64,000 nt of DNA from Rhabditoides inermis. Taxonomy: Eukaryota > Nematoda > Chromadorea > Rhabditida > Rhabditidae. Shown piece by piece: positions 44,902 through 64,000 of this stretch. The position numbers and the translations under genes are program-made. How positions within the stretch are numbered: position 1 is the first letter of the stretch; every line of letters begins with the position of its first letter. The stretch lies in contig CAWZYM010000402.1 of NCBI GenBank assembly GCA_963966185.1, positions 483,001-547,000 of the forward strand, written 5' to 3'. The notes below the pieces were generated by a model that made no database searches, was not told the origin of the DNA, and was given only the letters and a program-made list of their open reading frames with translations.

Positions 44902-45019
44902 CACGTTTTAGCAACGCAGTGTTCCGAATTCGATTTCTCTCGTATTTCATTTGACAACATCTCGACTCGATTTCAGTAAACACACTCTCATGCATTGTAG
45001 ACAGCAAGCAGTAAACGCA

Positions 45020-45132
45020 GCACGGATGGCCGAGTGGTCTAAGGCGCCAGACTCAAGCGATCGCTTCATACGAGCATGTGTGGGCATTCTGGTATCGGAA
45101 ACGATGCGTGGGTTCGAACCCCACTCCGTGCA
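45020..45132 (+). tRNA. tRNA-Leu(CAA), unit 1
   Basis: Acceptor stem GCACGGA pairs perfectly with TCCGTGC. The anticodon stem CCAGA/TCTGG encloses CT-CAA-G, a 29-nt intron follows the base 3' of the anticodon, and a class II variable arm (ATCG/CGAT) and T arm (GTGGG-TTCGAAC-CCCAC) complete a standard eukaryotic tRNA-Leu. Boxes A and B are intact and TTTT follows within ten bases. CCA is not encoded. Mature length 84 before CCA. All later tRNA-Leu entries match this unless a difference is stated. Confidence 0.95.
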
Positions 45133-45179
45133 AATCTTTTGCCAAAATGTAGTGGCAGTACACTGAACAACAAAACTTT

Positions 45180-45264
45180 TGCTCCATGGGAGGATCGAAC
45201 ACCCGACCTCGGCATTTCTTACAACATATAAGTACCACGCGCTAACCGACTGCGCCAATGGAGC
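45180..45264 (-). tRNA. tRNA-Ile(UAU), unit 1
   Basis: Acceptor GCTCCAT/ATGGAGC, anticodon loop CT-TAT-A, an 11-nt intron, and T loop TTCGATC give a tRNA-Ile decoding AUA. A TTTT terminator follows. Here the T stem has one T-T mismatch (GGGTG for GGGAG). Later tRNA-Ile entries match the canonical form (GGGAG/CTCCC T stem) unless stated. Confidence 0.88.
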
Positions 45265-45381
45265 ACGTTTTAGCAATGCAGTGTTCCAAATTCGATTTCT
45301 CTCGTATTTCATTTGACAACATCTCGACTCGATTTCAGTAAACACACTCTCATGCATTGTAGACAGCAAGCAGTAAACGCA

Positions 45382-45494
45382 GCACGGATGGCCGAGTGGT
45401 CTAAGGCGCCAGACTCAAGCGATCGCTTCATACGAGCATGTGTGGGCATTCTGGTATCGGAAACGATGCGTGGGTTCGAACCCCACTCCGTGCA
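45382..45494 (+). tRNA. tRNA-Leu(CAA), unit 2
   Basis: Same as unit 1; the downstream spacer is the TTACC/TTTTGG type. Confidence 0.95.
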
Positions 45495-45541
45495 AATCTT
45501 TTACCAAAATGTTTTGGCAGTACACTGAACAACAAAACTTT

Positions 45542-45626
45542 TGCTCCATGGGAGGATCGAACACCCGACCTCGGCATTTCTTACAACATATAAGTACCAC
45601 GCGCTAACCGACTGCGCCAATGGAGC
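45542..45626 (-). tRNA. tRNA-Ile(UAU), unit 2
   Basis: Carries the same T-stem mismatch as unit 1. Confidence 0.88.
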
Positions 45627-45743
45627 ACGTTTTAGCAATGCAGTGTTCCAAATTCGATTTCTCTCGTATTTAATTTGACAACATCTCGACTCGATTTCAG
45701 TAAACACACTCTCATGCATTGTAGACAGCAAGCAGTAAACGCA

Positions 45744-45856
45744 GCACGGATGGCCGAGTGGTCTAAGGCGCCAGACTCAAGCGATCGCTTCATACGAGCA
45801 TGTGTGGGCATTCTGGTATCGGAAACGATGCGTGGGTTCGAACCCCACTCCGTGCA
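45744..45856 (+). tRNA. tRNA-Leu(CAA), unit 3
   Basis: Canonical; last tRNA-Leu before the retroelement. Confidence 0.95.
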
Positions 45857-45903
45857 AATCTTTTACCAAAATGTTTTGGCAGTACACTGAACAACAAAAC
45901 TTT

Positions 45904-45983
45904 TGCTCCATGGGAGGATCGAACTCCCGACCTCGGCATTTCTTACAACATATAAGTACCACGCGCTAACCGACTGCGCCAAT
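45904..45983 (-). pseudogene. tRNA-Ile(UAU), unit 3, split by the retroelement
   Basis: Body, anticodon arm, intron and 3' acceptor strand are intact, but the 5' acceptor strand is cut after the fifth base. The missing bases (GCTCC on the minus strand) resume at 52042-52046, on the far side of the 6-kb insertion. A single extra T at 52041 is the only possible target-site duplication. Confidence 0.92.
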
Positions 45984-46073
45984 AAATAATAAACGCAACA
46001 TAATAATTGCGATAACAAACAAAACAAAAAAGGGGGTGAGACAGAGAGAAAGACAGAGAGATAAAAGATAAAA

Positions 46074-46146
46074 GCCGTTTCGGGTGTAAAACGCTATACG
46101 GCAAAACTTTGTCCCTCCCACCCTCGTCAGTAACGATAGAGAGACG
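46074..46146 (-). ncRNA. Hammerhead-like ribozyme core in the element 3' region
   Basis: Minus strand: CGTC (46143-46146), a 12-base gap, CTGACGA (the CUGANGA core), then GGGTG, a ~30-base loop and CACCC forming a perfect five-pair stem II, then GAAACG. ACG can pair with the CGT before the putative cleavage C, giving a three-pair stem III. The 12-base gap does not form a convincing stem I, so activity is uncertain. The duplicate is at 50611-50683. Confidence 0.3.
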
Positions 46147-46425
46147 TGTAATTTTTGAATGGATAGTATTGTATATGGTATATAAAAAGAAAGGAAAGAA
46201 AACGCGAAATAACTATCATAAGCAAGCAAGTTACAAGTAATGAGCACAAAACAGTGTGGAGACGCTTGAGAATTTGTTTGTGAGTGACTGCGCGAGGCAG
46301 TGGGATGGGTGTGGCGTGGCTACAGCGTAGTCTGCCGTAGGTCTCCTTGAGGTCACTCGCACTGAGTGTGCAGTGCTGGGTTTAGTTCAAAGATCAATAT
46401 TTCCGGTGCGGGCGTTAATCACTTC

Positions 46426-49188
46426 TCAATTAAAAAGTTTCAAAAAGGACTCCATTTTTTCAAGATTATATTTTATAGTGAGAGATTTATTCTGCATAAC
46501 TGCGTATGCAATTTTCATGTTTATTTCTTGACTGGGAAAACCGTTTCTTATAAATTTATCTCGTAGTTCTTTGATTCTAGACATAAAAGTCTTCGTCTCA
46601 GTACAACATCTGTATATTCTCAGTACTTCTCCATTCAAACAGTTCCACGATATGCTGCGTTTCATGTTTGTATTGTATTTTGGATAGCGGACTATTTCGA
46701 ACGAGTATTCATCTGTCTTATTATAAAGTGAAGTAATTATTTGATTTTTAATGGTTATTTCGAGATCAAGGAAGACTGTTTGTTTATCAGTGGCGCTTGT
46801 TTGTTCGAGTGTTAGTGAATTATGGTAAATAGACTGAATTTTTGAGATAATGTCATGGTCATTGTGTCTATATATTATCAGTAGATCATCCATGTATCTA
46901 TATCCTCTTACCTGGTAATGTTTGAAATTGGGATTTTGTTTCATGAATGTGTATTCCATGTGTGAGAGTGTCAAATCAGCAATGAGAGGAGAAGCATTAT
47001 TTCCTTGCGGAATGCCGGATATCTGTTGATATACATTGTCTCCATAGACAGCAAAGCTGTTTTGGAGGATATACTCAATCATAAATTTGACTTCATCTTT
47101 CGTGTAGGTTCTGTTGGTGTTTCGGGATGAATCATTTTCTTTAGGATTATTGTAAAAGACTTTATTGTAAGTTACGGTGATATAGTTTTTACCACTGTTT
47201 TTAAAACATAATTCTATCAGTTCGAACATGTGTTTCTTAACAACGTCATGTGGAAGATTTGTAAACAGACTGCTGAAATCTGCACAATAGACCAATTTGT
47301 TTGAAATGTTATCGATACCCCTAAGGTCATCGACGACTTCAATGCTGTTATCCACCGACCAGTACGGGGATGACTTTTGTCCATTTCGTTGTCTAATAGT
47401 TTCAGAATAGTTTTTGAAATGACTTTTCATGTGTTTTAGAATTCTTTGCGTATCTATAGAAATAGCTTTGATACTGCTATTATAAGCGCCTGTGATGAAT
47501 CTAAATTTTATTGGAGTTTTGTGCATTTTTGGGATGGCATAAATTTTGGGTAACGCTAGGTCCTTACTTTTGGTTTCGAGGTTGAGGCTTTTTGTGGTAA
47601 TTTCATGTCTTTTAATAATAGATGAATATGTTTCACGGTCATATATTTTATATGTGGGGTTAGAAGCAATATTTTTTCTCGTTACATGATCAAAACCTAA
47701 TTCTTTGTTCATGGTTATTACGTAAAGTTTTTTGCAAGTAAGTGCAAAATTACCTGCGGCTTTGTCAATGCATGTGATGATGAAGTGTTTTTGAAGTTCT
47801 TTTAGTTCTTTATGCAAAGAATGCCAATTATTTTCATTAGAATATGGAATGTATTGTTTTCTCAGCTTTATTTTAAATTGTGAGAGTATTGAATTTGTGA
47901 CAAGATTTTCAATGTTTTTATGGAGTTGATACTTGTTAGCAATAAGTTTGCAGAATTGGTTTAGTGTAGTTTCAACCTCAGTTTGGATATCATTTATTGT
48001 GTACCTTTTTTGTTCTCTGAATTTTGTTCCTTGTTCCATAAGGTTTCGTAGTTTTGGATTCTCGATTATGTTTAGATTTCCAGTTACTATATGATTGTGA
48101 TGAGAATTAATGAAGTTTTTATAAGTTGTTTTACATTCACATTCACTTTCAATGATGTTAGAAATCATATCGTTGTTCAATTCTTTTAAAAATGAGTTGT
48201 AATTTGCTATTTTATGGAATATAGAAAGTTCGTTCTCGTATGTTATTCTTACTTGTTGTATTTTACTTCCAACTAGCGTATTAGTTTCTTTAATGCATTT
48301 ATTAATAATTTTTGATAGATTAATATTTTCCATAAATTGGCCATAGTATCTTATTTTAACGTAGTGATAGTTGTCGGGCTTATGTATAGTATTTTCTTTT
48401 TTGTAATTTGTGAGAAAATTGCAAACCATTGCAAATATTTTTCTTTTGACGTATGGTGATAGTAGATTGAAGTCTAAATTATTGATCATGTAGTTTGTTA
48501 GCGTTTCTACTGAATGTTTGGATAAGCATCTGTAATATTTGTAGAGATCTGTTCTTTCAAGTGATTCTATATTTGTAAGCAATTCTTGTATAGATTTTGT
48601 GTTTTTACCCTTTTTAAGTGATCTTCTCTTTTTACCTCTTCTTTTCTTTGTTTCGAATTGAATATTTTGACTGTAAAATGGATGATTTTTAATCTTTCCA
48701 AGAGTTAAATTGTTTGAAATATTTCCAAAAGATTTTATTTGATCATTTAGACCAAATGGGTATGCTGATATTAATGTTTTAATCCAATATAGTTCTTTCG
48801 AAAGTCTAATTTGAGTGTTACTATTTTCTTCATGATTGTCAAGAATTTCTATCGTGAAGTCTTCTGGGTTGTGGTCGTTTGCTTGGAAATGATTACTTAT
48901 GTAAGTATTGTATTTATCGTTTTTGAAGGAATTTCTGTGTTTTGACATTCTTTGTTTCAGTGTTGTGCTAGTTTCGCCAACATACTGGATTTTACATTTG
49001 TTGCATGTAATAAGATAGATTAGGCACGTTGAAGAACAATTAGCATCACCGTATTTCATAGTAGGATGCGTAAATCCTGTTTGACTGCTTTTTGTTGTGT
49101 TTGCGAATTTTAGTTTGGGGCAGATAACGCACTGTTTTATAGTACAGCGTATTCCATTAGCTGTGGTTGAGGTGGGTATAATGGCCAT
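46426..49188 (-). CDS. Penelope-like element polyprotein: GIY-YIG endonuclease plus reverse transcriptase
   Basis: An uninterrupted 920-residue frame. Residues about 55-150 are a GIY-YIG nuclease: I57-Y58-L59, Y69-V-G71, catalytic Glu in ELYWIK (132) and Asn in FGLND (148), with the Cys pair C62/C65 and His pair H100/H106 typical of Penelope-like endonucleases. A CEC motif at 350-352 matches the CxC linker of N-terminal-endonuclease elements. The reverse transcriptase follows: PKIYAIPKMHKTP finger motif, motif A with D637 (CADFSSLF), motif B (GIPQGNNASPL), motif C YMDD (D767, D768) and VFLDLEI. A basic RGKKRRSLKKGK patch lies near 185-197. The enzyme would nick target DNA and prime cDNA synthesis from it. 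The frame extends upstream of this ATG for about 25 codons, so the start could be further 5'. Confidence 0.93.
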   Translation of the reverse strand: MAIIPTSTTANGIRCTIKQCVICPKLKFANTTKSSQTGFTHPTMKYGDANCSSTCLIYLITCNKCKIQYVGETSTTLKQRMSKHRNSFKNDKYNTYISNHFQANDHNPEDFTIEILDNHEENSNTQIRLSKELYWIKTLISAYPFGLNDQIKSFGNISNNLTLGKIKNHPFYSQNIQFETKKRRGKKRRSLKKGKNTKSIQELLTNIESLERTDLYKYYRCLSKHSVETLTNYMINNLDFNLLSPYVKRKIFAMVCNFLTNYKKENTIHKPDNYHYVKIRYYGQFMENINLSKIINKCIKETNTLVGSKIQQVRITYENELSIFHKIANYNSFLKELNNDMISNIIESECECKTTYKNFINSHHNHIVTGNLNIIENPKLRNLMEQGTKFREQKRYTINDIQTEVETTLNQFCKLIANKYQLHKNIENLVTNSILSQFKIKLRKQYIPYSNENNWHSLHKELKELQKHFIITCIDKAAGNFALTCKKLYVITMNKELGFDHVTRKNIASNPTYKIYDRETYSSIIKRHEITTKSLNLETKSKDLALPKIYAIPKMHKTPIKFRFITGAYNSSIKAISIDTQRILKHMKSHFKNYSETIRQRNGQKSSPYWSVDNSIEVVDDLRGIDNISNKLVYCADFSSLFTNLPHDVVKKHMFELIELCFKNSGKNYITVTYNKVFYNNPKENDSSRNTNRTYTKDEVKFMIEYILQNSFAVYGDNVYQQISGIPQGNNASPLIADLTLSHMEYTFMKQNPNFKHYQVRGYRYMDDLLIIYRHNDHDIISKIQSIYHNSLTLEQTSATDKQTVFLDLEITIKNQIITSLYNKTDEYSFEIVRYPKYNTNMKRSISWNCLNGEVLRIYRCCTETKTFMSRIKELRDKFIRNGFPSQEINMKIAYAVMQNKSLTIKYNLEKMESFLKLFN

Positions 49189-49888
49189 TTTTGACTTCCC
49201 TTCCCTCCGGCATTTGATATTGTTATTTTGATAGTAAGCGAATTGGGTGGTTGGGGTGTTCGGTGTTTAGTGGCCACCGAGCCGGAAGTAAGTGGGTGCA
49301 CTGTGGTGACAGAGTATATTTGTTGGTGAAGTGATGAATAATAAGTATTGGTCGGACTGGGTATCCCTGTCCCCTCATCACGGTAGGCGTCAGGACACAC
49401 CACTGTGCGGTAAGGTACCGTCCTGATCATTAATCCTCATCATGATGAAGGCGATTTTTTAAATTCCGAGGTTGAATCCTCGTGGTATTTTACTTAATAA
49501 TGGATGTCTTGGATAGGTTGTAAGCTCAATCAATGTAAATTTTATTTAGCCATTGTTGGTGATAATTGTTGATCAGCGCGGATGAAAGGCGAGTTTGTTA
49601 TTGTAGCGTTAGTTGAATACATTGTGACTGTTCTTTTATTTTAGAAGTTTTGAATTGGGAGGGAAAAGTTGTGTTTTGAAAAGTTGTTATGTCAGAAGGA
49701 AGGTAGTCAATAATGATTGGTAATCTTGAATGAATATAACCGTAAAATGTAGTAAGAGTGATCAGGACTAAGTCCTGATAGGATCAGTTGAATGTATTAG
49801 AGACAATGTCTCTTAAGAGTGGAGTCAGAAGAATAAACTTCTGAGTGCATTCCAAAGGAATACAGTAGTGAAAGAGTCACCGCCATTT

Positions 49889-50310
49889 GGCGGCGTGGTG
49901 GGTGAGGCGAACCTCGATCGCTGCCCGCTAGGGGTAGCGTGGTGGGTGAGGCGAACCTCGATCGCTGCCCGCTAGGGGTGGCGTGGTAGGTGAGGCGAAC
50001 CTCGATCGCTGCCCGCAAGGGGTAGCGTGGTGGGTGAGGCGAACCTCGATCGCTGCCCGCTAGGGGTAGCGTGGTGGGTGAGGCGGACCTCGATCGCTGC
50101 CCGTTGGGGGTAGCGTGGTGGGTGAGGCGAACCTCGATCGCTGCCCGCTAGGGGTGGCGTGGTAGGTGAGGCGAACCTCGATCGCTGCCCGCAAGGGGTA
50201 GCGTGGTGGGTGAGGCGAACCTCGATCGCTGCCCGCTAGGGGTAGCGTGGTGGGTGAGGCGGACCTCGATCGCTGCCCGTTGGGGGTAGCGTGGTGGGTG
50301 AGGCAAGCCT
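49889..50310 (-). repeat. 44-bp minisatellite in the element 5' region
   Basis: About ten tandem copies of a 44-base unit (plus strand GTGGTGGGTGAGGCGAACC, then TCGATCGCTGCCCGCTAGG). Variants of the unit recur every four copies (176 bp): the GTGGTAGG form at about 49984 and 50160, and the CGTTGGGGG form at about 50100 and 50276. It lies upstream of the ORF in the full copy only and is likely part of the 5' UTR or promoter. Confidence 0.85.
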
Positions 50311-50962
50311 CATAAGGAAACAAGCTCATGATAGCAAGTGTAGTGATGAGAATTAATGATTTAATATGTAAGAAGAAGAAAAAAGGAGAAAAGGGTTAGT
50401 GCATAATGGATAATAATTGCGAACTGAGATATTGATCATGCGATCGATATTCCCCCCCGGGTCAGAAAAGGGAGTGAGTCACAGACTACACAGTCACCGA
50501 ATCTTACCGGTACAAACAATAAATAATAAACGCAACATAATAATTGCGATAACAAACAAAACAAAAAAGGGGGTGAGACAGAGAGAAAGACAGAGAGATA
50601 AAAGATAAAAGCCGTTTCGGGTGTAAAACGCTATACGGCAAAACTTTGTCCCTCCCACCCTCGTCAGTAACGATAGAGAGACGTGTAATTTTTGAATGGA
50701 TAGTATTGTATATGGTATATAAAAAGAAAGGAAAGAAAACGCGAAATAACTATCATAAGCAAGCAAGTTACAAGTAATGAGCACAAAACAGTGTGGAGAC
50801 GCTTGAGAATTTGTTTGTGAGTGACTGCGCGAGGCAGTGGGATGGGTGTGGCGTGGCTACAGCGTAGTCTGCCGTAGGTCTCCTTGAGGTCACTCGCACT
50901 GAGTGTGCAGTGCTGGGTTTAGTTCAAAGATCAATATTTCCGGTGCGGGCGTTAATCACTTC

Positions 50963-52040
50963 TCAATTAAAAAGTTTCAAAAAGGACTCCATTTTTTCAA
51001 GATTATATTTTATAGTGAGAGATTTATTCTGCATAACTGCGTATGCAATTTTCATGTTTATTTCTTGACTGGGAAAACCGTTTCTTATAAATTTATCTCG
51101 TAGTTCTTTGATTCTAGACATAAAAGTCTTCGTCTCAGTACAACATCTGTATATTCTCAGTACTTCTCCATTCAAACAGTTCCACGATATGCTGCGTTTC
51201 ATGTTTGTATTGTATTTTGGATAGCGGACTATTTCGAACGAGTATTCATCTGTCTTATTATAAAGTGAAGTAATTATTTGATTTTTAATGGTTATTTCGA
51301 GATCAAGGAAGACTGTTTGTTTATCAGTGGCGCTTGTTTGTTCGAGTGTTAGTGAATTATGGTAAATAGACTGAATTTTTGAGATAATGTCATGGTCATT
51401 GTGTCTATATATTATCAGTAGATCATCCATGTATCTATATCCTCTTACCTGGTAATGTTTGAAATTGGGATTTTGTTTCATGAATGTGTATTCCATGTGT
51501 GAGAGTGTCAAATCAGCAATGAGAGGAGAAGCATTATTTCCTTGCGGAATGCCGGATATCTGTTGATATACATTGTCTCCATAGACAGCAAAGCTGTTTT
51601 GGAGGATATACTCAATCATAAATTTGACTTCATCTTTCGTGTAGGTTCTGTTGGTGTTTCGGGATGAATCATTTTCTTTAGGATTATTGTAAAAGACTTT
51701 ATTGTAAGTTACGGTGATATAGTTTTTACCACTGTTTTTAAAACATAATTCTATCAGTTCGAACATGTGTTTCTTAACAACGTCATGTGGAAGATTTGTA
51801 AACAGACTGCTGAAATCTGCACAATAGACCAATTTGTTTGAAATGTTATCGATACCCCTAAGGTCATCGACGACTTCAATGCTGTTATCCACCGACCAGT
51901 ACGGGGATGACTTTTGTCCATTTCGTTGTCTAATAGTTTCAGAATAGTTTTTGAAATGACTTTTCATGTGTTTTAGAATTCTTTGCGTATCTATAGAAAT
52001 AGCTTTGATACTGCTATTATAAGCGCCTGTGATGAATCTA
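50963..52040 (-). pseudogene. 5'-truncated upstream copy of the retroelement ORF
   Basis: Contains the last ~358 codons, from KFRFITGAYNSS through motifs A, B and C to the stop, with no disruption. Nuclease, CxC linker and fingers are absent, so it cannot encode a complete enzyme. Confidence 0.92.
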
Positions 52041-52163
52041 TGGAGCACGTTTTAGCAATGCAGTGTTCCGAATTCGAATTCTCTCGTATTTCATTTGACA
52101 ACATCTCGACTCGATTTCAGTAAACACATTCTTATGCATTGTAGACAGCAAGCAGTAAACGCA

Positions 52164-52276
52164 GCACGGATGGCCGAGTGGTCTGAGGCGCCAGACTTAA
52201 GCGATCGCTTCATACGAGCATGTGTGGGCATTCTGGTATCGGAAACGATGCGTGGGTTCGAACCCCACTCCGTGCA
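52164..52276 (+). tRNA. tRNA-Leu(UAA), unit 4
   Basis: The anticodon loop reads CT-TAA-G instead of CT-CAA-G, changing the codon read from UUG to UUA (and UUG by wobble). A linked D-loop change reads TCTGAGG. Stems, intron and boxes are otherwise canonical. Confidence 0.93.
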
Positions 52277-52323
52277 AATCTTTTACCAAAATGTTTTGGC
52301 AGTACACTGAACAACAAAACTTT

Positions 52324-52408
52324 TGCTCCATAGGAGGATCGAACTCCCGACCTCGGCATTTCTTACAACATATAAGTACCACGCGCTAACCGACTGCGCC
52401 AATGAAGC
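52324..52408 (-). tRNA. tRNA-Ile(UAU), unit 4
   Basis: Two wobble variants: acceptor GCTTCAT (U-G pair) and a terminal G-U in the T stem. Confidence 0.9.
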
Positions 52409-52525
52409 ACGTTTTAGCAATGCAGTGTTCCGAATTCGATTTCTCTCGTATTTCATTTGACAACATCTCGACTCGATTTCAGTAAACACACTCTCATGCA
52501 TTGTAGACAGCAAGCAGTAAACGCA

Positions 52526-52638
52526 GCACGGATGGCCGAGTGGTCTGAGGCGCCAGACTTAAGCGATCGCTTCATACGAGCATGTGTGGGCATTCTGGTA
52601 TCGGAAACGATGCGTGGGTTCGAACCCCACTCCGTGCA
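52526..52638 (+). tRNA. tRNA-Leu(UAA), unit 5
   Basis: Same UAA anticodon and D-loop G as unit 4. Confidence 0.93.
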
Positions 52639-52685
52639 AATCTTTTACCAAAATGTTTTGGCAGTACACTGAACAACAAAACTTT

Positions 52686-52770
52686 TGCTCCATAGGAGGA
52701 TCGAACTCCCGACCTCGGCATTTCTTACAACATATAAGTACCACGCGCTAACCGACTGCGCCAATGGAGC
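52686..52770 (-). tRNA. tRNA-Ile(UAU), unit 5
   Basis: T-stem G-U variant; acceptor canonical. Confidence 0.92.
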
Positions 52771-52887
52771 ACGTTTTAGCAATGCAGTGTTCCGAATTCG
52801 ATTTCTCTCGTATTTCATTTGACAACATCTGGACTCGATTTCAGTAAACACACTCTCATGCATTGTAGACAGCAAGTGGTAAACGCA

Positions 52888-53000
52888 GCACGGATGGCCG
52901 AGTGGTCTAAGGCGCCAGACTCAAGCGATCGCTTCATACGAGCATGTGTGGGCATTCTGGTATCGGAAACGATGCGTGGGTTCGAACCCCACTCCGTGCA
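52888..53000 (+). tRNA. tRNA-Leu(CAA), unit 6
   Basis: Canonical; leader of the CTGGACTCG/GTGGTAAACG subtype. Confidence 0.95.
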
Positions 53001-53047
53001 AATCTTTTACCAAAATGTTTTGGCAGTACACTGAACAACAAAACTTT

Positions 53048-53132
53048 TGCTCCATGGGAGGATCGAACTCCCGACCTCGGCATTTCTTACAACATATAAG
53101 TACCACGCGCTAACCGACTGCGCCAATGGAGC
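53048..53132 (-). tRNA. tRNA-Ile(UAU), unit 6
   Basis: Canonical. Confidence 0.95.
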
Positions 53133-53249
53133 ACGTTTTAGCAAGGCAGTGTTCCGAATTCGATTTCTCTCGTATTTCATTTGACAACATCTCGACTCGA
53201 TTTCAGTAAACACACTCTCATGCATTGTAGACAGCAAGCAGTAAACGCA

Positions 53250-53362
53250 GCACGGATGGCCGAGTGGTCTAAGGCGCCAGACTCAAGCGATCGCTTCATA
53301 CGAGCATGTGTGGGCATTCTGGTATCGGAAACGATGCGTGGGTTCGAACCCCACTCCGTGCA
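53250..53362 (+). tRNA. tRNA-Leu(CAA), unit 7
   Basis: Canonical. Confidence 0.95.
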
Positions 53363-55534: not shown

Positions 55535-55581
55535 AATCTTTTACCAAAATGTTTTGGCAGTACACTGAACAACAAAACTTT

Positions 55582-55666
55582 TGCTCCATAGGAGGATCGA
55601 ACTCCCGACCTCGGCATTTCTTACAACATATAAGTACCACGCGCTAACCGACTGCGCCAATGGAGC
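55582..55666 (-). tRNA. tRNA-Ile(UAU), unit 13
   Basis: T-stem G-U variant. Confidence 0.92.
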
Positions 55667-55783
55667 ACGTTTTAGCAATGCAGTGTTCCGAATTCGATTT
55701 CTCTCGTATTTCATTTGACAACATCTGGACTCGATTTCAGTAAACACACTCTCATGCATTGTAGACAGCAAGTGGTAAACGCA

Positions 55784-55896
55784 GCACGGATGGCCGAGTG
55801 GTCTAAGGCGCCAGACTCAAGCGATCGCTTCATACGAGCATGTGTGGGCATTCTGGTATCGGAAACGATGCGTGGGTTCGAACCCCACTCCGTGCA
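55784..55896 (+). tRNA. tRNA-Leu(CAA), unit 14
   Basis: Canonical; GTGGTAAACG leader. Confidence 0.95.
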
Positions 55897-55943
55897 AATC
55901 TTTTACCAAAATGTTTTGGCAGTACACTGAACAACAAAACTTT

Positions 55944-56028
55944 TGCTCCATGGGAGGATCGAACTCCCGACCTCGGCATTTCTTACAACATATAAGTACC
56001 ACGCGCTAACCGACTGCGCCAATGGAAC
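55944..56028 (-). tRNA. tRNA-Ile(UAU), unit 14
   Basis: Acceptor base 2 is T (GTTCCAT), a U-G wobble. Confidence 0.9.
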
Positions 56029-56145
56029 ACGTTTTAGCAAGGCAGTGTTCCGAATTCGATTTCTCTCGTATTTCATTTGACAACATCTCGACTCGATTTC
56101 AGTAAACACACTCTCATGCATTGTAGACAGCAAGCAGTAAACGCA

Positions 56146-56258
56146 GCACGGATGGCCGAGTGGTCTAAGGCGCCAGACTCAAGCGATCGCTTCATACGAG
56201 CATGTGTGGGCATTCTGGTATCGGAAACGATGCGTGGGTTCGAACCCCACTCCGTGCA
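56146..56258 (+). tRNA. tRNA-Leu(CAA), unit 15
   Basis: Canonical. Confidence 0.95.
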
Positions 56259-56305
56259 AATCTTTTACCAAAATGTTTTGGCAGTACACTGAACAACAAA
56301 ACTTT

Positions 56306-56390
56306 TGCTCCATGGGAGGATCGAACACCCGACCTCGGCATTTCTTACAACATATAAGTACCACGCGCTAACCGACTGCGCCAATTGAGC
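56306..56390 (-). tRNA. tRNA-Ile(UAU), unit 15, damaged form
   Basis: Same two mismatches as unit 8 but with the TTTTGG spacer, so the damage and the spacer type have been recombined. Confidence 0.7.
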
Positions 56391-56507
56391 ACGTTTTAGC
56401 AATGCAGTGTTCCGAATTCAATTTCTCTCGTATTTCATTTGACAACATCTCGACTCGATTTCAGTAAACACACTCTCATGCATTGTAGACAGCAAGCAGT
56501 AAACGCA

Positions 56508-56620
56508 GCACGGATGGCCGAGTGGTCTAAGGCGCCAGACTCAAGCGATCGCTTCATACGAGCATGTGTGGGCATTCTGGTATCGGAAACGATGCGTGGG
56601 TTCGAACCCCACTCCGTGCA
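56508..56620 (+). tRNA. tRNA-Leu(CAA), unit 16
   Basis: Canonical. Confidence 0.95.
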
Positions 56621-56667
56621 AATCTTTTACCAAAATGTTTTGGCAGTACACTGAACAACAAAACTTT

Positions 56668-56752
56668 TGCTCCATGGGAGGATCGAACTCCCGACCTCGG
56701 CATTTCTTACAACATATAAGTACCACGCGCTAACCGACTGCGCCAATGGAGC
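56668..56752 (-). tRNA. tRNA-Ile(UAU), unit 16
   Basis: Canonical. Confidence 0.95.
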
Positions 56753-56879
56753 ACGTTTTAGCAATGCAGTGTTCCGAATTCGATTTCTCTCGTATTTCAT
56801 TTGACAACATCTGGACTCGATTTCAGTAAACACACTCTCATGCATTGTAGACAGCAAGTGGTAAACGGCAGTAAACGCA

Positions 56880-56992
56880 GCACGGATGGCCGAGTGGTCT
56901 AAGGCGCCAGACTCAAGCGATCGCTTCATACGAGCATGTGTGGGCATTCTGGTATCGGAAACGATGCGTGGGTTCGAACCCCACTCCGTGCA
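56880..56992 (+). tRNA. tRNA-Leu(CAA), unit 17
   Basis: Canonical gene; the leader has a 10-bp insertion (GTAAACGGCAGTAAACG). Confidence 0.95.
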
Positions 56993-57039
56993 AATCTTTT
57001 ACCAAAATGTTTTGGCAGTACACTGAACAACAAAACTTT

Positions 57040-57124
57040 TGCTCCATGGGAGGATCGAACTCCCGACCTCGGCATTTCTTACAACATATAAGTACCACGC
57101 GCTAACCGACTGCGCCAATGGAGC
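57040..57124 (-). tRNA. tRNA-Ile(UAU), unit 17
   Basis: Canonical. Confidence 0.95.
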
Positions 57125-57241
57125 ACGTTTTAGCAAGGCAGTGTTCCGAATTCGATTTCTCTCGTATTTCATTTGACAACATCTCGACTCGATTTCAGTA
57201 AACACACTCTCATGCATTGTAGACAGCAAGCAGTAAACGCA

Positions 57242-57354
57242 GCACGGATGGCCGAGTGGTCTAAGGCGCCAGACTCAAGCGATCGCTTCATACGAGCATG
57301 TGTGGGCATTCTGGTATCGGAAACGATGCGTGGGTTCGAACCCCACTCCGTGCA
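57242..57354 (+). tRNA. tRNA-Leu(CAA), unit 18
   Basis: Canonical. Confidence 0.95.
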
Positions 57355-57401
57355 AATCTTTTACCAAAATGTTTTGGCAGTACACTGAACAACAAAACTT
57401 T

Positions 57402-57486
57402 TGCTCCATGGGAGGATCGAACTCCCGACCTCGGCATTTCTTACAACATATAAGTACCACGCGCTAACCGACTGCGCCAATGAAGC
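57402..57486 (-). tRNA. tRNA-Ile(UAU), unit 18
   Basis: Acceptor wobble GCTTCAT as in units 4, 12 and 34 but with the canonical T stem: a recombinant between subtypes. Confidence 0.92.
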
Positions 57487-57603
57487 ACGTTTTAGCAATG
57501 CAGTGTTCCGAATTCGATTTCTCTCGTATTTCATTTGACAACATCTCGACTCGATTTCAGTAAACACACTCTCATGCATTGTAGACAGCAAGCAGTAAAC
57601 GCA

Positions 57604-57716
57604 GCACGGATGGCCGAGTGGTCTGAGGCGCCAGACTTAAGCGATCGCTTCATACGAGCATGTGTGGGCATTCTGGTATCGGAAACGATGCGTGGGTTCG
57701 AACCCCACTCCGTGCA
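57604..57716 (+). tRNA. tRNA-Leu(UAA), unit 19
   Basis: UAA anticodon with D-loop G; a single UAA unit rather than a pair. Confidence 0.93.
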
Positions 57717-57763
57717 AATCTTTTACCAAAATGTTTTGGCAGTACACTGAACAACAAAACTTT

Positions 57764-57848
57764 TGCTCCATAGGAGGATCGAACTCCCGACCTCGGCATT
57801 TCTTACAACATATAAGTACCACGCGCTAACCGACTGCGCCAATGGAGC
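57764..57848 (-). tRNA. tRNA-Ile(UAU), unit 19
   Basis: T-stem G-U variant. Confidence 0.92.
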
Positions 57849-57965
57849 ACGTTTTAGCAATGCAGTGTTCCGAATTCGATTTCTCTCGTATTTCATTTGA
57901 CAACATCTGGACTCGATTTCAGTAAACACACTCTCATGCATTGTAGACAGCAAGTGGTAAACGCA

Positions 57966-58078
57966 GCACGGATGGCCGAGTGGTCTAAGGCGCCAGACTC
58001 AAGCGATCGCTTCATACGAGCATGTGTGGGCATTCTGGTATCGGAAACGATGCGTGGGTTCGAACCCCACTCCGTGCA
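57966..58078 (+). tRNA. tRNA-Leu(CAA), unit 20
   Basis: Canonical; GTGGTAAACG leader. Confidence 0.95.
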
Positions 58079-58125
58079 AATCTTTTACCAAAATGTTTTG
58101 GCAGTACACTGAACAACAAAACTTT

Positions 58126-58210
58126 TGCTCCATGGGAGGATCGAACTCCCGACCTCGGCATTTCTTACAACATATAAGTACCACGCGCTAACCGACTGCG
58201 CCAATGGAGC
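58126..58210 (-). tRNA. tRNA-Ile(UAU), unit 20
   Basis: Canonical. Confidence 0.95.
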
Positions 58211-58327
58211 ACGTTTCAGCAAGGCAGTGTTCCGAATTCGATTTCTCTCGTATTTCATTTGACAACATCTCGACTCGATTTCAGTAAACACACTCTCATG
58301 CATTGTAGACAGCAAGCAGTAAACGCA

Positions 58328-58440
58328 GCACGGATGGCCGAGTGGTCTAAGGCGCCAGACTCAAGCGATCGCTTCATACGAGCATGTGTGGGCATTCTGG
58401 TATCGGAAACGATGCGTGGGTTCGAACCCCACTCCGTGCA
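58328..58440 (+). tRNA. tRNA-Leu(CAA), unit 21
   Basis: Canonical. Confidence 0.95.
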
Positions 58441-58487
58441 AATCTTTTACCAAAATGTTTTGGCAGTACACTGAACAACAAAACTTT

Positions 58488-58572
58488 TGCTCCATGGGAG
58501 GATCGAACTCCCGACCTCGGCATTTCTTACAACATATAAGTACCACGCGCTAACCGACTGCGCCAATGGAGC
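58488..58572 (-). tRNA. tRNA-Ile(UAU), unit 21
   Basis: Canonical. Confidence 0.95.
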
Positions 58573-58689
58573 ACGTTTTAGCAATGCAGTGTTCCGAATT
58601 CGATTTCTCTCGTATTTCATTTGACAACATCTCGACTCGATTTCAGTAAACACACTCTCATGCATTGTAGACAGCAAGCAGTAAACGCA

Positions 58690-58792
58690 GCACGGATGGC
58701 CGAGTGGTCTAAGGCGCCAGACTCAAGCGATCGCTTCATACGGGCATTCTGGTATCGGAAACGATGCGTGGGTTCGAACCCCACTCCGTGCA
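58690..58792 (+). tRNA. tRNA-Leu(CAA), unit 22, short intron
   Basis: Ten bases are deleted inside the intron (29 to 19 nt); exons are unchanged. Confidence 0.92.
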
Positions 58793-58839
58793 AATCTTTT
58801 GCCAAAATGTAGTGGCAGTACACTGAACAACAAAACTTT

Positions 58840-58924
58840 TGCTCCATGGGAGGATCGAACACCCGACCTCGGCATTTCTTACAACATATAAGTACCACGC
58901 GCTAACCGACTGCGCCAATTGAGC
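58840..58924 (-). tRNA. tRNA-Ile(UAU), unit 22, damaged form
   Basis: Same two mismatches as unit 8. Confidence 0.7.
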
Positions 58925-59041
58925 ACGTTTTAGCAATGCAGTGTTCCGAATTCAATTTCTCTCGTATTTCATTTGACAACATCTCGACTCGATTTCAGTA
59001 AACACACTCTCATGCATTGTAGACAGCAAGCAGTAAACGCA

Positions 59042-59154
59042 GCACGGATGGCCGAGTGGTCTAAGGCGCCAGACTCAAGCGATCGCTTCATACGAGCATG
59101 TGTGGGCATTCTGGTATCGGAAACGATGCGTGGGTTCGAACCCCACTCCGTGCA
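59042..59154 (+). tRNA. tRNA-Leu(CAA), unit 23
   Basis: Canonical. Confidence 0.95.
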
Positions 59155-59201
59155 AATCTTTTACCAAAATGTTTTGGCAGTACACTGAACAACAAAACTT
59201 T

Positions 59202-59286
59202 TGCTCCATGGGAGGATCGAACTCCCGACCTCGGCATTTCTTACAACATATAAGTACCACGCGCTAACCGACTGCGCCAATGGAGC
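59202..59286 (-). tRNA. tRNA-Ile(UAU), unit 23
   Basis: Canonical. Confidence 0.95.
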
Positions 59287-59413
59287 ACGTTTTAGCAATG
59301 CAGTGTTCCGAATTCGATTTCTCTCGTATTTCATTTGACAACATCTGGACTCGATTTCAGTAAACACACTCTCATGCATTGTAGACAGCAAGTGGTAAAC
59401 GGCAGTAAACGCA

Positions 59414-59526
59414 GCACGGATGGCCGAGTGGTCTAAGGCGCCAGACTCAAGCGATCGCTTCATACGAGCATGTGTGGGCATTCTGGTATCGGAAACGATG
59501 CGTGGGTTCGAACCCCACTCCGTGCA
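59414..59526 (+). tRNA. tRNA-Leu(CAA), unit 24
   Basis: Canonical; same 10-bp leader insertion as unit 17. Confidence 0.95.
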
Positions 59527-59573
59527 AATCTTTTACCAAAATGTTTTGGCAGTACACTGAACAACAAAACTTT

Positions 59574-59658
59574 TGCTCCATGGGAGGATCGAACTCCCGA
59601 CCTCGGCATTTCTTACAACATATAAGTACCACGCGCTAACCGACTGCGCCAATGGAGC
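59574..59658 (-). tRNA. tRNA-Ile(UAU), unit 24
   Basis: Canonical. Confidence 0.95.
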
Positions 59659-59775
59659 ACGTTTTAGCAAGGCAGTGTTCCGAATTCGATTTCTCTCGTA
59701 TTTCATTTGACAACATCTCGACTCGATTTCAGTAAACACACTCTCATGCATTGTAGACAGCAAGCAGTAAACGCA

Positions 59776-59888
59776 GCACGGATGGCCGAGTGGTCTAAGG
59801 CGCCAGACTCAAGCGATCGCTTCATACGAGCATGTGTGGGCATTCTGGTATCGGAAACGATGCGTGGGTTCGAACCCCACTCCGTGCA
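59776..59888 (+). tRNA. tRNA-Leu(CAA), unit 25
   Basis: Canonical. Confidence 0.95.
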
Positions 59889-59921
59889 AATCTTTTACCA
59901 AAATGTTTTGGCAGTACACTG

Positions 59922-60015
59922 CTAAGGCGCCAGACTCAAGCGATCGCTTCATACGAGCATGTGTGGGCATTCTGGTATCGGAAACGATGCGTGGGTTCGA
60001 ACCCCACTCCGTGCA
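59922..60015 (+). pseudogene. 5'-truncated tRNA-Leu in unit 25
   Basis: A 127-bp internal duplication repeats tRNA-Leu from CTAAGGCGCC in the D loop to the 3' end. The 5' acceptor strand and A box are missing. Confidence 0.93.
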
Positions 60016-60062
60016 AATCTTTTACCAAAATGTTTTGGCAGTACACTGAACAACAAAACTTT

Positions 60063-60147
60063 TGCTCCATGGGAGGATCGAACTCCCGACCTCGGCATTT
60101 CTTACAACATATAAGTACCACGCGCTAACCGACTGCGCCAATGGAGC
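60063..60147 (-). tRNA. tRNA-Ile(UAU), unit 25
   Basis: Canonical. Confidence 0.95.
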
Positions 60148-60264
60148 ACGTTTTAGCAATGCAGTGTTCCGAATTTGATTTCTCTCGTATTTCATTTGAC
60201 AACATCTCGACTCGATTTCAGTAAACACACTCTCATGCATTGTAGACAGCAAGCAGTAAACGCA

Positions 60265-60377
60265 GCACGGATGGCCGAGTGGTCTAAGGCGCCAGACTCA
60301 AGCGATCGCTTCATACGAGCATGTGTGGGCATTCTGGTATCGGAAACGATGCGTGGGTTCGAACCCCACTCCGTGCA
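60265..60377 (+). tRNA. tRNA-Leu(CAA), unit 26
   Basis: Canonical. Confidence 0.95.
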
Positions 60378-60424
60378 AATCTTTTACCAAAATGTTTTGG
60401 CAGTACACTGAACAACAAAACTTT

Positions 60425-60509
60425 TGCTCTATGGGAGGATCGAACTCCCGACCTCGGCATTTCTTACAACATATAAGTACCACGCGCTAACCGACTGCGC
60501 CAATGGAGC
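60425..60509 (-). tRNA. tRNA-Ile(UAU), unit 26
   Basis: The 3' acceptor strand reads ATAGAGC, giving one C-A mismatch. Confidence 0.82.
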
Positions 60510-60626
60510 ACGTTTTAGCAATGCAGTGTTCCGAATTCGATTTCTCTCGTATTTCATTTGACAACATCTCGACTCGATTTCAGTAAACACACTGTCATGC
60601 GTTGTAGACAGCAAGTATTAAACGCA

Positions 60627-60739
60627 GCACGGATGGCCGAGTGGTCTAAGGCGCCAGACTCAAGCGATCGCTTCATACGAGCATGTGTGGGCATTCTGGT
60701 ATCGGAAACGATGCGTGGGTTCGAACCCCACTCCGTGCA
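60627..60739 (+). tRNA. tRNA-Leu(CAA), unit 27
   Basis: Canonical; start of the TGTATTGG spacer subtype (units 27-33). Confidence 0.95.
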
Positions 60740-60786
60740 AATCTTTTGCCAAAATGTATTGGCAATACTCTGAACAACAAAACTTT

Positions 60787-60871
60787 TGCTCCATGGGAGG
60801 ATCGAACTCCCGACCTCGGCATTTCTTACAACATATAAGTACCACGCGCTAACCGACTGCGCCAATGGAGC
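60787..60871 (-). tRNA. tRNA-Ile(UAU), unit 27
   Basis: Canonical. Confidence 0.95.
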
Positions 60872-60988
60872 ACGTTTTAGCAATGCAGTGTTCCGAATTC
60901 GATTTCTCTCGTATTTCATTTGACAACATCTCGACTCGATTTCAGTAAACACACTCTCATGCATTGTAGACAGCAAGTAGTAAACGCA

Positions 60989-61101
60989 GCACGGATGGCC
61001 GAGTGGTCTAAGGCGCCAGACTCAAGCGATCGCTTCATACGAGCATGTGTGGGCATTCTGGTATCGGAAACGATGCGTGGGTTCGAACCCCACTCCGTGC
61101 A
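60989..61101 (+). tRNA. tRNA-Leu(CAA), unit 28
   Basis: Canonical. Confidence 0.95.
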
Positions 61102-61148
61102 AATCTTTTGCCAAAATGTATTGGCAGTACTCTGAACAACAAAACTTT

Positions 61149-61233
61149 TGCTCCATGGGAGGATCGAACTCCCGACCTCGGCATTTCTTACAACATATAA
61201 GTACCACGCGCTAACCGACTGCGCCAATGGAGC
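61149..61233 (-). tRNA. tRNA-Ile(UAU), unit 28
   Basis: Canonical. Confidence 0.95.
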
Positions 61234-61349
61234 ACGTTTTAGCAATGCAGTGTTCGAATTCGATTTCTCTCGTATTTCATTTGACAACATCTCGACTCGA
61301 TTTCAGTAAACACACTCTCATGCATTGTAGACAGCAAGTAGTAAACGAA

Positions 61350-61462
61350 GCACGGATGGCCGAATGGTCTAAGGCGCCAGACTCAAGCGATCGCTTCATA
61401 CGAGCATGTGTGGGCATTCTGGTATCGGAAACGATGCGTGGGTTCGAACCCCACTCCGTGCA
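61350..61462 (+). tRNA. tRNA-Leu(CAA), unit 29
   Basis: The A box has GAATGG for GAGTGG, which may weaken transcription. Confidence 0.85.
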
Positions 61463-61509
61463 AAACTTTTGCCAAAATGTATTGGCAGTACTCTGAACAA
61501 CAAAACTTT

Positions 61510-61594
61510 TGCTCCATGGGAGGATCGAACTCCCGACCTCGGCATTTCTTACAACATATAAGTACCACGCGCTAACCGACTGCGCCAATGGAGC
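61510..61594 (-). tRNA. tRNA-Ile(UAU), unit 29
   Basis: Canonical. Confidence 0.95.
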
Positions 61595-61710
61595 ACGTTT
61601 TAGCAATGCAGTGTTCGAATTCGATTTCTCTCGTATTTCATTTGACAACATCTCGACTCGATTTCAGTAAACACACTCTCATGCATTGTAGACAGCAAGT
61701 AGTAAACGCA

Positions 61711-61823
61711 GCACGGATGGCCGAGTGGTCTAAGGCGCCAGACTCAAGCGATCGCTTCATACGAGCATGTGTGGGCATTCTGGTATCGGAAACGATGCGT
61801 GGGTTCGAACCCCACTCCGTGCA
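61711..61823 (+). tRNA. tRNA-Leu(CAA), unit 30
   Basis: Canonical. Confidence 0.95.
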
Positions 61824-61870
61824 AATCTTTTGCCAAAATGTATTGGCAGTACTCTGAACAACAAAACTTT

Positions 61871-61955
61871 TGCTCCATGGGAGGATCGAACTCCCGACCT
61901 CGGCATTTCTTACAACATATAAGTACCACGCGCTAACCGACTGCGCCAATGGAGC
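61871..61955 (-). tRNA. tRNA-Ile(UAU), unit 30
   Basis: Canonical. Confidence 0.95.
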
Positions 61956-62071
61956 ACGTTTTAGCAATGCAGTGTTCGAATTCAATTTCTCTCGTATTTC
62001 ATTTGACAACATCTCGAATCGATTTCAGTAAACACACTCTCATGCATTGTAGACAGCAAGTAGTAAACGAA

Positions 62072-62184
62072 GCACGGATGGCCGAGTGGTCTAAGGCGCC
62101 AGACTCAAGCGATCGCTTCATACGAGCATGTGTGGGCATTCTGGTATCGGAAACGATGCGTGGTTTCGAACCCCACTCCGTGCA
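62072..62184 (+). tRNA. tRNA-Leu(CAA), unit 31
   Basis: Loses the last T-stem pair (GTGGT), as in unit 13. Confidence 0.82.
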
Positions 62185-62231
62185 AATCTTTTGCCAAAAT
62201 GTATTGGCAGTACTCTGAACAACAAAACTTT

Positions 62232-62316
62232 TGCTCCATGGGAGGATCGAACTCCCGACCTCGGCATTTCTTACAACATATAAGTACCACGCGCTAACCG
62301 ACTGCGCCAATGGAGC
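62232..62316 (-). tRNA. tRNA-Ile(UAU), unit 31
   Basis: Canonical. Confidence 0.95.
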
Positions 62317-62433
62317 ACGTTTTAGCAATGCAGTGTTCCGAATTCGATTTCTCTTGTTTTTCATTTGACAACATCTCGACTCAATTTCAGTAAACACACT
62401 CTCATGCATTGTAGACAGCAAGTAGTAAACGCA

Positions 62434-62546
62434 GCACGGATGGCCGAGTGGTCTAAGGCGCCAGACTCAAGCGATCGCTTCATACGAGCATGTGTGGGCA
62501 TTCTGGTATCGGAAACGATGCGTGGGTTCGAACCCCACTCCGTGCA
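62434..62546 (+). tRNA. tRNA-Leu(CAA), unit 32
   Basis: Canonical; longer T terminator (six T). Confidence 0.95.
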
Positions 62547-62593
62547 AATTTTTTGCCAAAATGTATTGGCAGTACTCTGAACAACAAAACTTT

Positions 62594-62678
62594 TGCTCCA
62601 TGGGAGGATCAAACTCCCGACCTCGGCATTTCTTACAACATATAAGTACCACGCGCTAACCGACTGCGCCAATGGAGC
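62594..62678 (-). tRNA. tRNA-Ile(UAU), unit 32
   Basis: T loop reads TTTGATC: the invariant C56 is lost, which damages both the fold and the B box. Confidence 0.72.
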
Positions 62679-62795
62679 ACGTTTTAGCAATGCAGTGTTC
62701 CGAATTCGATTTCTCTCGTATTTCATTTGACAACATCTTGACTCGATTTCAGTAAACACACTCTCATGCATTGTAGACAGCAAGTAGTAAACGCA

Positions 62796-62908
62796 GCGCG
62801 GATGGCCGAGTGGTCTAAGGCGCCAGACTCAAGCGATCGCTTCATACGAGCATGTGTGGGCATTCTGGTATCGGAAACGATGCGTGGGTTCGAACCCCAC
62901 TCCGTGCA
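62796..62908 (+). tRNA. tRNA-Leu(CAA), unit 33
   Basis: Acceptor GCGCGGA, a G-U wobble at the third pair. Confidence 0.92.
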
Positions 62909-62955
62909 AATCTTTTGCCAAAATGTATTGGCAATACTCTGAACAACAAAACTTT

Positions 62956-63040
62956 TGCTCCATGGGAGGATCGAACTCTCGACCTCGGCATTTCTTACAA
63001 CATATAAGTACCACGCGCTAACCGACTGCGCCAATGGAGC
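62956..63040 (-). tRNA. tRNA-Ile(UAU), unit 33
   Basis: T stem GAGAG gives one A-C mismatch. Confidence 0.8.
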
Positions 63041-63157
63041 ACGTTTTAGCAATGCAGTGTTCCGAATTCGATTTCTCTCGTATTTCATTTGACAACATCT
63101 CGACTCGATTTCAGTAAACACACTCTTATGCATTGTAGACAGCAAGCAGTAAACGCA

Positions 63158-63270
63158 GCACGGATGGCCGAGTGGTCTGAGGCGCCAGACTTAAGCGATC
63201 GCTTCATACGAGCATGTGTGGGCATTCTGGTATCGGAAACGATGCGTGGGTTCGAACCCCACTCCGTGCA
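63158..63270 (+). tRNA. tRNA-Leu(UAA), unit 34
   Basis: UAA anticodon with D-loop G. Confidence 0.93.
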
Positions 63271-63317
63271 AATCTTTTACCAAAATGTTTTGGCAGTACA
63301 CTGAACAACAAAACTTT

Positions 63318-63402
63318 TGCTCCATAGGAGGATCGAACTCCCGACCTCGGCATTTCTTACAACATATAAGTACCACGCGCTAACCGACTGCGCCAATGAA
63401 GC
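63318..63402 (-). tRNA. tRNA-Ile(UAU), unit 34
   Basis: Both wobble variants, as unit 4. Confidence 0.9.
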
Positions 63403-63519
63403 ACGTTTTAGCAATGCAGTGTTCCGAATTCGATTTCTCTCGTATTTCATTTGACAACATCTCGACTCGATTTCAGTAAACACACTCTCATGCATTGTAG
63501 ACAGCAAGCAGTAAACGCA

Positions 63520-63632
63520 GCACGGATGGCCGAGTGGTCTGAGGCGCCAGACTTAAGCGATCGCTTCATACGAGCATGTGTGGGCATTCTGGTATCGGAA
63601 ACGATGCGTGGGTTCGAACCCCACTCCGTGCA
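63520..63632 (+). tRNA. tRNA-Leu(UAA), unit 35
   Basis: UAA anticodon with D-loop G. Confidence 0.93.
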
Positions 63633-63679
63633 AATCTTTTACCAAAATGTTTTGGCAGTACACTGAACAACAAAACTTT

Positions 63680-63764
63680 TGCTCCATAGGAGGATCGAAC
63701 TCCCGACCTCGGCATTTCTTACAACATATAAGTACCACGCGCTAACCGACTGCGCCAATGGAGC
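63680..63764 (-). tRNA. tRNA-Ile(UAU), unit 35
   Basis: T-stem G-U variant. Confidence 0.92.
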
Positions 63765-63881
63765 ACGTTTTAGCAATGCAGTGTTCCGAATTCGATTTCT
63801 CTCGTATTTCATTTGACAACATCTGGACTCGATTTCAGTAAACACACTCTCATGCATTGTAGACAGCAAGTGGTAAACGCA

Positions 63882-63994
63882 GCACGGATGGCCGAGTGGT
63901 CTAAGGCGCCAGACTCAAGCGATCGCTTCATACGAGCATGTGTGGGCATTCTGGTATCGGAAACGATGCGTGGGTTCGAACCCCACTCCGTGCA
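63882..63994 (+). tRNA. tRNA-Leu(CAA), unit 36
   Basis: Canonical and complete; its partner tRNA-Ile lies beyond the window. Confidence 0.95.
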
Positions 63995-64000
63995 AATCTT

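Follow-up and report, generated by a model that had tools for sequence, protein, structure and literature searches.

In a 64,000-nucleotide stretch of the nematode Rhabditoides inermis (positions 483001-547000 of contig CAWZYM010000402.1, here C402, in a genome of 172.6 Mb and 599 contigs; the whole stretch is called the window), we identified a tandem array of 362-bp units, each carrying a tRNA-Leu gene and a tRNA-Ile(UAU) gene, both intron-bearing and set tail to tail. The array is one of at least five in this genome, and this genome-wide pattern of tRNA arrays is the main point of our analysis. The Leu/Ile array probably consists of amplified, potentially functional nuclear tRNA genes under concerted evolution.

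An initial annotation of the window had described positions 44902-64000 as a tandem array of at least 36 such units. The unit was recovered by Tandem Repeats Finder (TRF), by the Rfam tRNA model and by unit positions, at 44902-45983, 52040-59921 and 59922-64000 (97-99% matches in TRF), but the region is not continuous, with a Penelope-like retroelement at 45984-52039 and a 127-bp partial duplication at 59795-60048. Anchored on the 5' end of the Leu gene, 36 units lie in the window at a pitch of mostly 362 bp, with none in the opposite orientation. The count of 36 holds for the tRNA-Leu genes, all on the plus strand, but not for the tRNA-Ile(UAU) genes, of which there are 35, all on the minus strand, with one cut by the retroelement.

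Each unit runs from tRNA-Leu (+) through a 47-bp convergent spacer to tRNA-Ile(UAU) (-), followed by a divergent spacer of ~116 bp; the tRNA genes make up ~55% of the 362 bp. The tRNA-Leu gene comprises a 5' half of 38 nt, an intron of 29 nt and a 3' half of 46 nt, and the intron of tRNA-Ile(UAU) is 11 nt long. The Rfam tRNA model gave 70 matches at or above its gathering score in the window, corresponding to 35 of the 36 Leu and all 35 Ile genes; the Leu copy at 55422-55534 was the only one below that score. Both RNA polymerase III (Pol III) terminators lie in the shared convergent spacer, as first described: across the whole array, a run of four T (T4) is found within 15 nt 3' of the Leu gene in 117 of 118 cases and within 18 nt 3' of the Ile gene in 123 of 123, and both T4 runs of the spacer showed zero substitutions across the aligned units. 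TRF detected no short-period repeats in the array, the only periods being 362, 127 and 489 bp. The features of the array within the window are as follows.

44902-45983 (no strand): array block 1, three units, the third cut within tRNA-Ile (TRF, sequence, unit positions)
45020-45132 (+): representative tRNA-Leu(CAA), 38/29/46 nt (Rfam, 50.3 bits)
45133-45178 (no strand): convergent spacer of unit 1, with the Leu T4 at 45137-45140 and the opposite-strand Ile T4 at 45172-45175
45179-45265 (-): representative tRNA-Ile(UAU), 11-nt intron (ARAGORN, Rfam)
45907-45986 (-): tRNA-Ile gene interrupted by the retroelement
52040-64000 (no strand): array block 2, 33 units in the window, continuing beyond the window edge (TRF, unit positions)
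52164-52276 (+): Leu gene with anticodon TAA; further copies at 52526, 55060, 55422, 57604, 63158 and 63520
59795-60048 (no strand): 127-bp partial duplication in unit 25, with the Leu 3' half at 59991 orphaned (TRF)

The array does run off the window, as had been noted. It extends to window coordinate ~68,200 and picks up again at ~109,070, its end lying near 136,200 (C402: 527.9-619.2 kb); the interruption, at window coordinates ~68200-109070, is a nest of mobile elements 41 kb long. In total it holds 118 Leu and 123 Ile genes over a span of ~91 kb, with array sequence proper accounting for ~44.6 kb (from rounded limits). Near the distal end there are five 626-bp units, in each of which a Leu 3' part and an Ile gene are present in addition to the usual pair.

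Gene counts by pattern inside and outside the array place most copies of both types inside. The 5'-half patterns (at most 2 mismatches for Leu, 3 for Ile) gave 126 Leu and 128 Ile matches genome-wide, with strand counts of 123+3 and 3+125. Outside C402, 8 Leu and 8 Ile 5' halves were present among the matches listed, all of them perfect; by subtraction, 118 of the 126 Leu 5' halves and 120 of the 128 Ile 5' halves belong to the array, which the strand counts fit exactly, and about 94% of the genes of both types sit in the array. Reversed control patterns had 0 matches in the 172.6 Mb, so chance is not at issue. Compared by eye, all eight dispersed Leu genes have the mature halves of the array consensus, and two of the eight share flanks with each other; the dispersed Leu on C399 and one on C301 have an intron identical to the array Leu intron. 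The mature sequence of the dispersed Ile genes equals the array consensus in three of eight, and the other five carry a compensated G-C acceptor-stem pair (by eye); the array Ile intron was found in none of the eight. The flanks of the dispersed genes are, by eye, unrelated to the array.

Isotype assignment drew on the two halves of each gene, on an intron at the usual 37/38 position and on metazoan Leu-CAA and Ile-UAU sequences. ARAGORN, run with introns, misplaced the intron and so misnamed nearly all of the copies listed as Ala or Ser; two of those listed were called Leu(caa). Both isotypes of the initial annotation, tRNA-Leu and tRNA-Ile(UAU), stand, with the Leu anticodons corrected to 108 CAA, 7 TAA and 3 AAA across the 118 genes. 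The Leu-UAA haplotype consists of two linked changes, one in the anticodon and an A-to-G at gene position 22, and occurs in 7 units at four places in the array. The three Leu-AAA units, at window coordinates 117048, 118863 and 123574 (beyond the window, on C402), otherwise have the consensus gene, and their tRNAs, if made, would read Phe codons. A pattern for canonical Leu-UAA gave 5 matches on 4 contigs, with no array among them; it cannot match the array form, in which the D-loop is one base longer, so that its matches are confined to canonical dispersed genes. When folded as RNA, the pre-tRNAs had z-scores of -1.6 to -2.1 and Leu formed no clean cloverleaf, a non-decisive result.

Further tRNA arrays in the genome

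At least four further tRNA arrays were detected, none of which has the two-gene convergent layout. The five arrays have 1-5 tRNA genes per unit and head-to-tail units, and fifteen main anticodons were found arrayed. On C402 itself, ~23 kb from the Leu/Ile array, a second array starts at window coordinate 159,347, reaches 183,956 or beyond and contains 147 tRNA-Ser genes (86 CGA and 61 AGA) in units of ~157 bp, with a ~1.8-kb gap at 173-175 kb. By eye, its CGA and AGA copies are mixed in a pattern that repeats every ~15-16 units. At 159201 there is a shortened unit with the anticodon AAA.

The array at C220:116113-203198, which extends up to the contig end, has a 932-bp unit with Lys-UUU, two His-GUG and two Gly-UCC genes; ARAGORN counted 419 tRNA genes in it, and part of it is inverted. 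Units of ~1.27-1.29 kb occupy C302:884000-900404 (to the contig end) and C303:1-37562 (from the contig start), and these may perhaps be one array split over two contigs. In four stretches of it, the unit combines Tyr-GUA (with an intron), Asn-GUU and either one or two copies of Lys-CUU with a gene for U1 small nuclear RNA (snRNA), the last present in six copies scoring 128-131 bits. A Tyr pattern matched 11 copies on C302, 29 on C303 and 11 dispersed, such that 40 of 51 are arrayed. Finally, C117:0.3-19.1 kb carries units of ~0.77-0.81 kb with 25 Val copies by pattern, and its first two units contain Arg-UCU, Val-CAC, Trp-CCA and Ile-AAU, with Gln-UUG in the opposite orientation.

Other repeats were observed alongside these arrays. 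At C131:194892-225214, each unit of ~700 bp contains a pair of tRNA-like modules in opposed orientation, and one module of the pair also occurs on C418, C419, C420 and C509; with stems that are non-canonical by eye, these modules look like a tRNA-like satellite or a repeat derived from a short interspersed nuclear element. Tandem arrays of 5S rRNA genes lie at C109:977-11189 (unit ~1,442 bp) and C197:2429-22203 (unit ~561 bp), and no tRNA genes were found in the two 5S loci examined.

Homogenization, constraint and competing explanations

Among 118 362-mers of the Leu/Ile array, 81 are distinct, and blocks of three to four successive identical units recur 3-30 units apart. Duplication in blocks of this kind is indicative of unequal exchange or gene conversion, and anticodon variants take part in the block sharing, as in the case of the Leu-UAA haplotype. 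Of the 118 Leu genes, 70 retain the consensus mature halves, as do 81 of the 123 Ile genes and both genes together in 47 of 118 units; among the 35 complete units of the window, 23 have the consensus mature Leu and 12 have both genes.

Given the observed structure and copy number, the block duplications, the consensus shared with dispersed genes and the T4 terminators, we propose that one dispersed-type tRNA-Leu(CAA) and one tRNA-Ile(UAU), placed tail to tail, probably formed the starting unit, which was then amplified to ~120 copies whose similarity is maintained by unequal exchange or gene conversion. An internal promoter in each gene would drive its transcription by Pol III, with termination in the shared spacer, and the pre-tRNAs of both genes would be spliced. 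The array might in this way raise the dose of Leu-CAA and Ile-UAU genes at some stage or in some tissue.

Several results weigh against this reading. The mature sequence deviates from the consensus in 48 of the 118 Leu copies and in 42 of the 123 Ile copies, and exon variability was not significantly below that of the divergent spacer (44/159 vs 42/116 sites, P = 0.15) or of all spacer (P = 0.23). This test used 109 of 112 aligned units, with those at 45744 and 67854 and the last, at 135761, dropped, while six of the 118 units (five of 626 bp and one of 489 bp) lay outside the alignment; the strong spacer excess of a first constraint test (84/116 variable) had been produced by inserted sequence in units 45744 and 67854 and was withdrawn. 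In the C220 array, the genes were slightly more variable than the spacers (33/363 vs 32/569, P = 0.048, in 46 units of 925-940 bp, other lengths being excluded). Spliced retrocopies of Leu, sought with as many as 3 mismatches allowed, were not found, and thus no genomic trace of expression was seen. The main rival explanation, which we consider possible although distinctly less probable, is a satellite-like passenger that spread and was homogenized by recombination alone and is mostly silent. The lack of significant exon constraint in these two arrays and the many substituted copies would be consistent with such a passenger, as would the toleration of mobile elements within the array and the eight dispersed genes of each type, which could suffice; the Ser-Tyr-Tyr cluster of Arabidopsis, silent in most tissues, provides a precedent (PMC12308677).

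However, the commonest array sequence is the mature sequence of the dispersed genes for both types, and T4 terminators are retained nearly everywhere, both of which speak against a silent passenger. The 11-nt Ile intron is likewise unsubstituted (0/11 variable sites) in the 109 aligned units; both introns together were less variable than the divergent spacer (7/40 vs 42/116, P = 0.03), and the Leu intron alone did not differ significantly from it (P = 0.28). The Ser array, on the same contig, does show constraint, its genes being less variable than its spacers (32/84 vs 50/73 sites, P = 0.0002, 145 units). The evidence for selection across the arrays is mixed. A more far-reaching proposal would be an Entamoeba-like tRNA supply, with most copies of many types plus U1 snRNA in expressed arrays, these arrays acting as nurseries of anticodon change, and Leu-UAA and Leu-AAA used in translation. 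We regard this as doubtful. Intron-bearing Leu-UAA has 7 array copies, compared with the 5 dispersed canonical Leu-UAA genes found.

The remaining explanations appear much less probable. The array could serve chiefly to bind TFIIIC/Pol III, acting as an insulator or a nuclear organizer for which tRNA output is of secondary importance, a role that has been suggested for the human 1q23.3 repeat (PMC4041453). The occurrence of two arrays ~23 kb apart on C402 would agree with such a boundary role, yet the sequence features give no call for it and we consider it very unlikely. Slightly less likely again is an assembly artifact of collapsed or expanded repeats: tandem repeats are the usual failure point of assemblers, and the C220 and C302 arrays reach contig ends, but the 81 distinct sequences among 118 units, the non-repeat flanks to the left and right of the array, the two different insertions, each with array on both sides, and the zero N in the contig stretches examined all argue for a genuine array. 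The tail-to-tail layout of the window units might also favor convergent read-through, yielding tRNA antisense or double-stranded RNA that would feed small-RNA pathways, and small RNAs from such layouts have already been proposed (PMC2888827). With T4 3' of nearly all genes on both strands, heavy read-through is disfavored and should be low, which makes this the least probable of the explanations considered.

Mobile elements and other features of the window

The retroelement that separates the two array blocks, with its component features, was delimited as follows.

45984-52039 (-): Penelope-like retroelement, in the acceptor stem of the unit 3 tRNA-Ile; the flanks share 2-bp AT
45987-47500 (no strand): 1.5-kb terminal repeat (pseudo-long terminal repeat, pLTR-like), first direct copy
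46426-49188 (-): 920-aa open reading frame (ORF), GIY-YIG domain at residues 56-139
49893-50311 (no strand): 44-bp tandem repeat, 9.5 copies, within the retroelement (TRF)
50524-52037 (no strand): 1.5-kb terminal repeat, second direct copy

The GIY-YIG domain of the 920-aa ORF was identified by Pfam (PF01541, E 2e-8). Pfam matched no reverse transcriptase domain in this ORF, which also had no match in the PDB; two relatives, P0002 and P0003, carry PF00078. The terminal repeats are two direct copies of 1,514 bp, 100% identical, the second of which ends at the array. At least 45 pieces matching the terminal repeat occur genome-wide, two of them in the window and many 99-100% identical, a count that is a lower bound from 40 scored candidates of 193. 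Targeting of tRNA genes by the retroelement was considered and rejected: ARAGORN finds no tRNA gene in 20 of 20 flanks. A readable junction was present in 18 of the 20, two of these having the same flank, and matches between the flanks and the array unit span 9-19 bases, mostly in the element's own end.

The 41-kb insert beyond the window contains an inverted pair of ~11-kb arms, 99.7% identical, whose frames resemble capsid, protease and ATPase by eye and would be Polinton-like. Reverse-transcriptase-type frames are also present in this insert. Elsewhere in the window, a pair of tandem repeats (29 bp + 39 bp) is present twice, at 6478-6857 and 11418-11797, 4,940 bp apart, which suggests a duplication. 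The window also carries two pieces of a Pax-type paired box, the first exon identified by PF00292 and the second by eye.

Comparable systems and significance

The initial annotation had called the arrangement unusual. This applies to the convergent, all-intron layout, but tandem multi-isotype tRNA arrays as such are known from Entamoeba (PMC2652664), man (PMC4041453) and plants (PMC12652284), large mixed tRNA clusters occur in fish and Nematostella (PMC2888827), and at least four other arrays exist in this same genome. Neither a convergent, all-intron, two-gene array nor a tRNA-U1 array of this kind was found in the literature searched, which lacked most papers of subscription journals, and passages of PMC4300560 and PMC2695483 contain nothing on such tRNA arrays.

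The arrays of Entamoeba are similar to those described here in that as many as 5 tRNA genes of different types make up a tandemly repeated unit and in that several arrays are present per genome; they are probably homogenized by concerted evolution, and some species array an intron-bearing Leu-TAA (PMC2652664). However, almost all Entamoeba tRNA genes are arrayed, whereas dispersed copies of both types remain here, and the spacers of E. histolytica hold short tandem repeats that the 362-bp unit lacks (PMC2652664). Entamoeba is also an amoeba, whereas the present host is an animal. In another animal, Xenopus laevis, a 3.18-kb tDNA tandem repeat contains several tRNA genes, in a larger unit with more genes than here. 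The human variable-number tandem repeat at 1q23.3 likewise combines an animal host with several tRNA genes per unit, but its unit measures 7.3 kb, of which tRNA genes form <6%, and includes a CTCF site (PMC4041453), in contrast to ~55% of 362 bp. The Ser-Tyr-Tyr units of Arabidopsis and other plant units are also tandem and multi-isotype, with intron-bearing Tyr, although the Arabidopsis cluster, of 27 units, is silenced in most tissues (PMC12308677, PMC12652284). In zebrafish, stickleback and Nematostella, much of the tRNA gene set is clustered, with many clusters of mixed type, but adjacent pairs in that survey were mostly parallel (PMC2888827) and the pair in the present unit is convergent.

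As probable amplified tRNA genes under concerted evolution, the Leu/Ile array and its companions would make this an animal whose tRNA gene dose can shift through unequal crossing over at several arrays simultaneously. How tRNA copy number, codon use and concerted evolution are linked is directly testable in this animal. High redundancy has been suggested as a driver of anticodon shifts (PMC3923123), and the anticodon variants of these arrays (Leu CAA/UAA/AAA, Ser CGA/AGA) are a natural record of such shifts under high redundancy.

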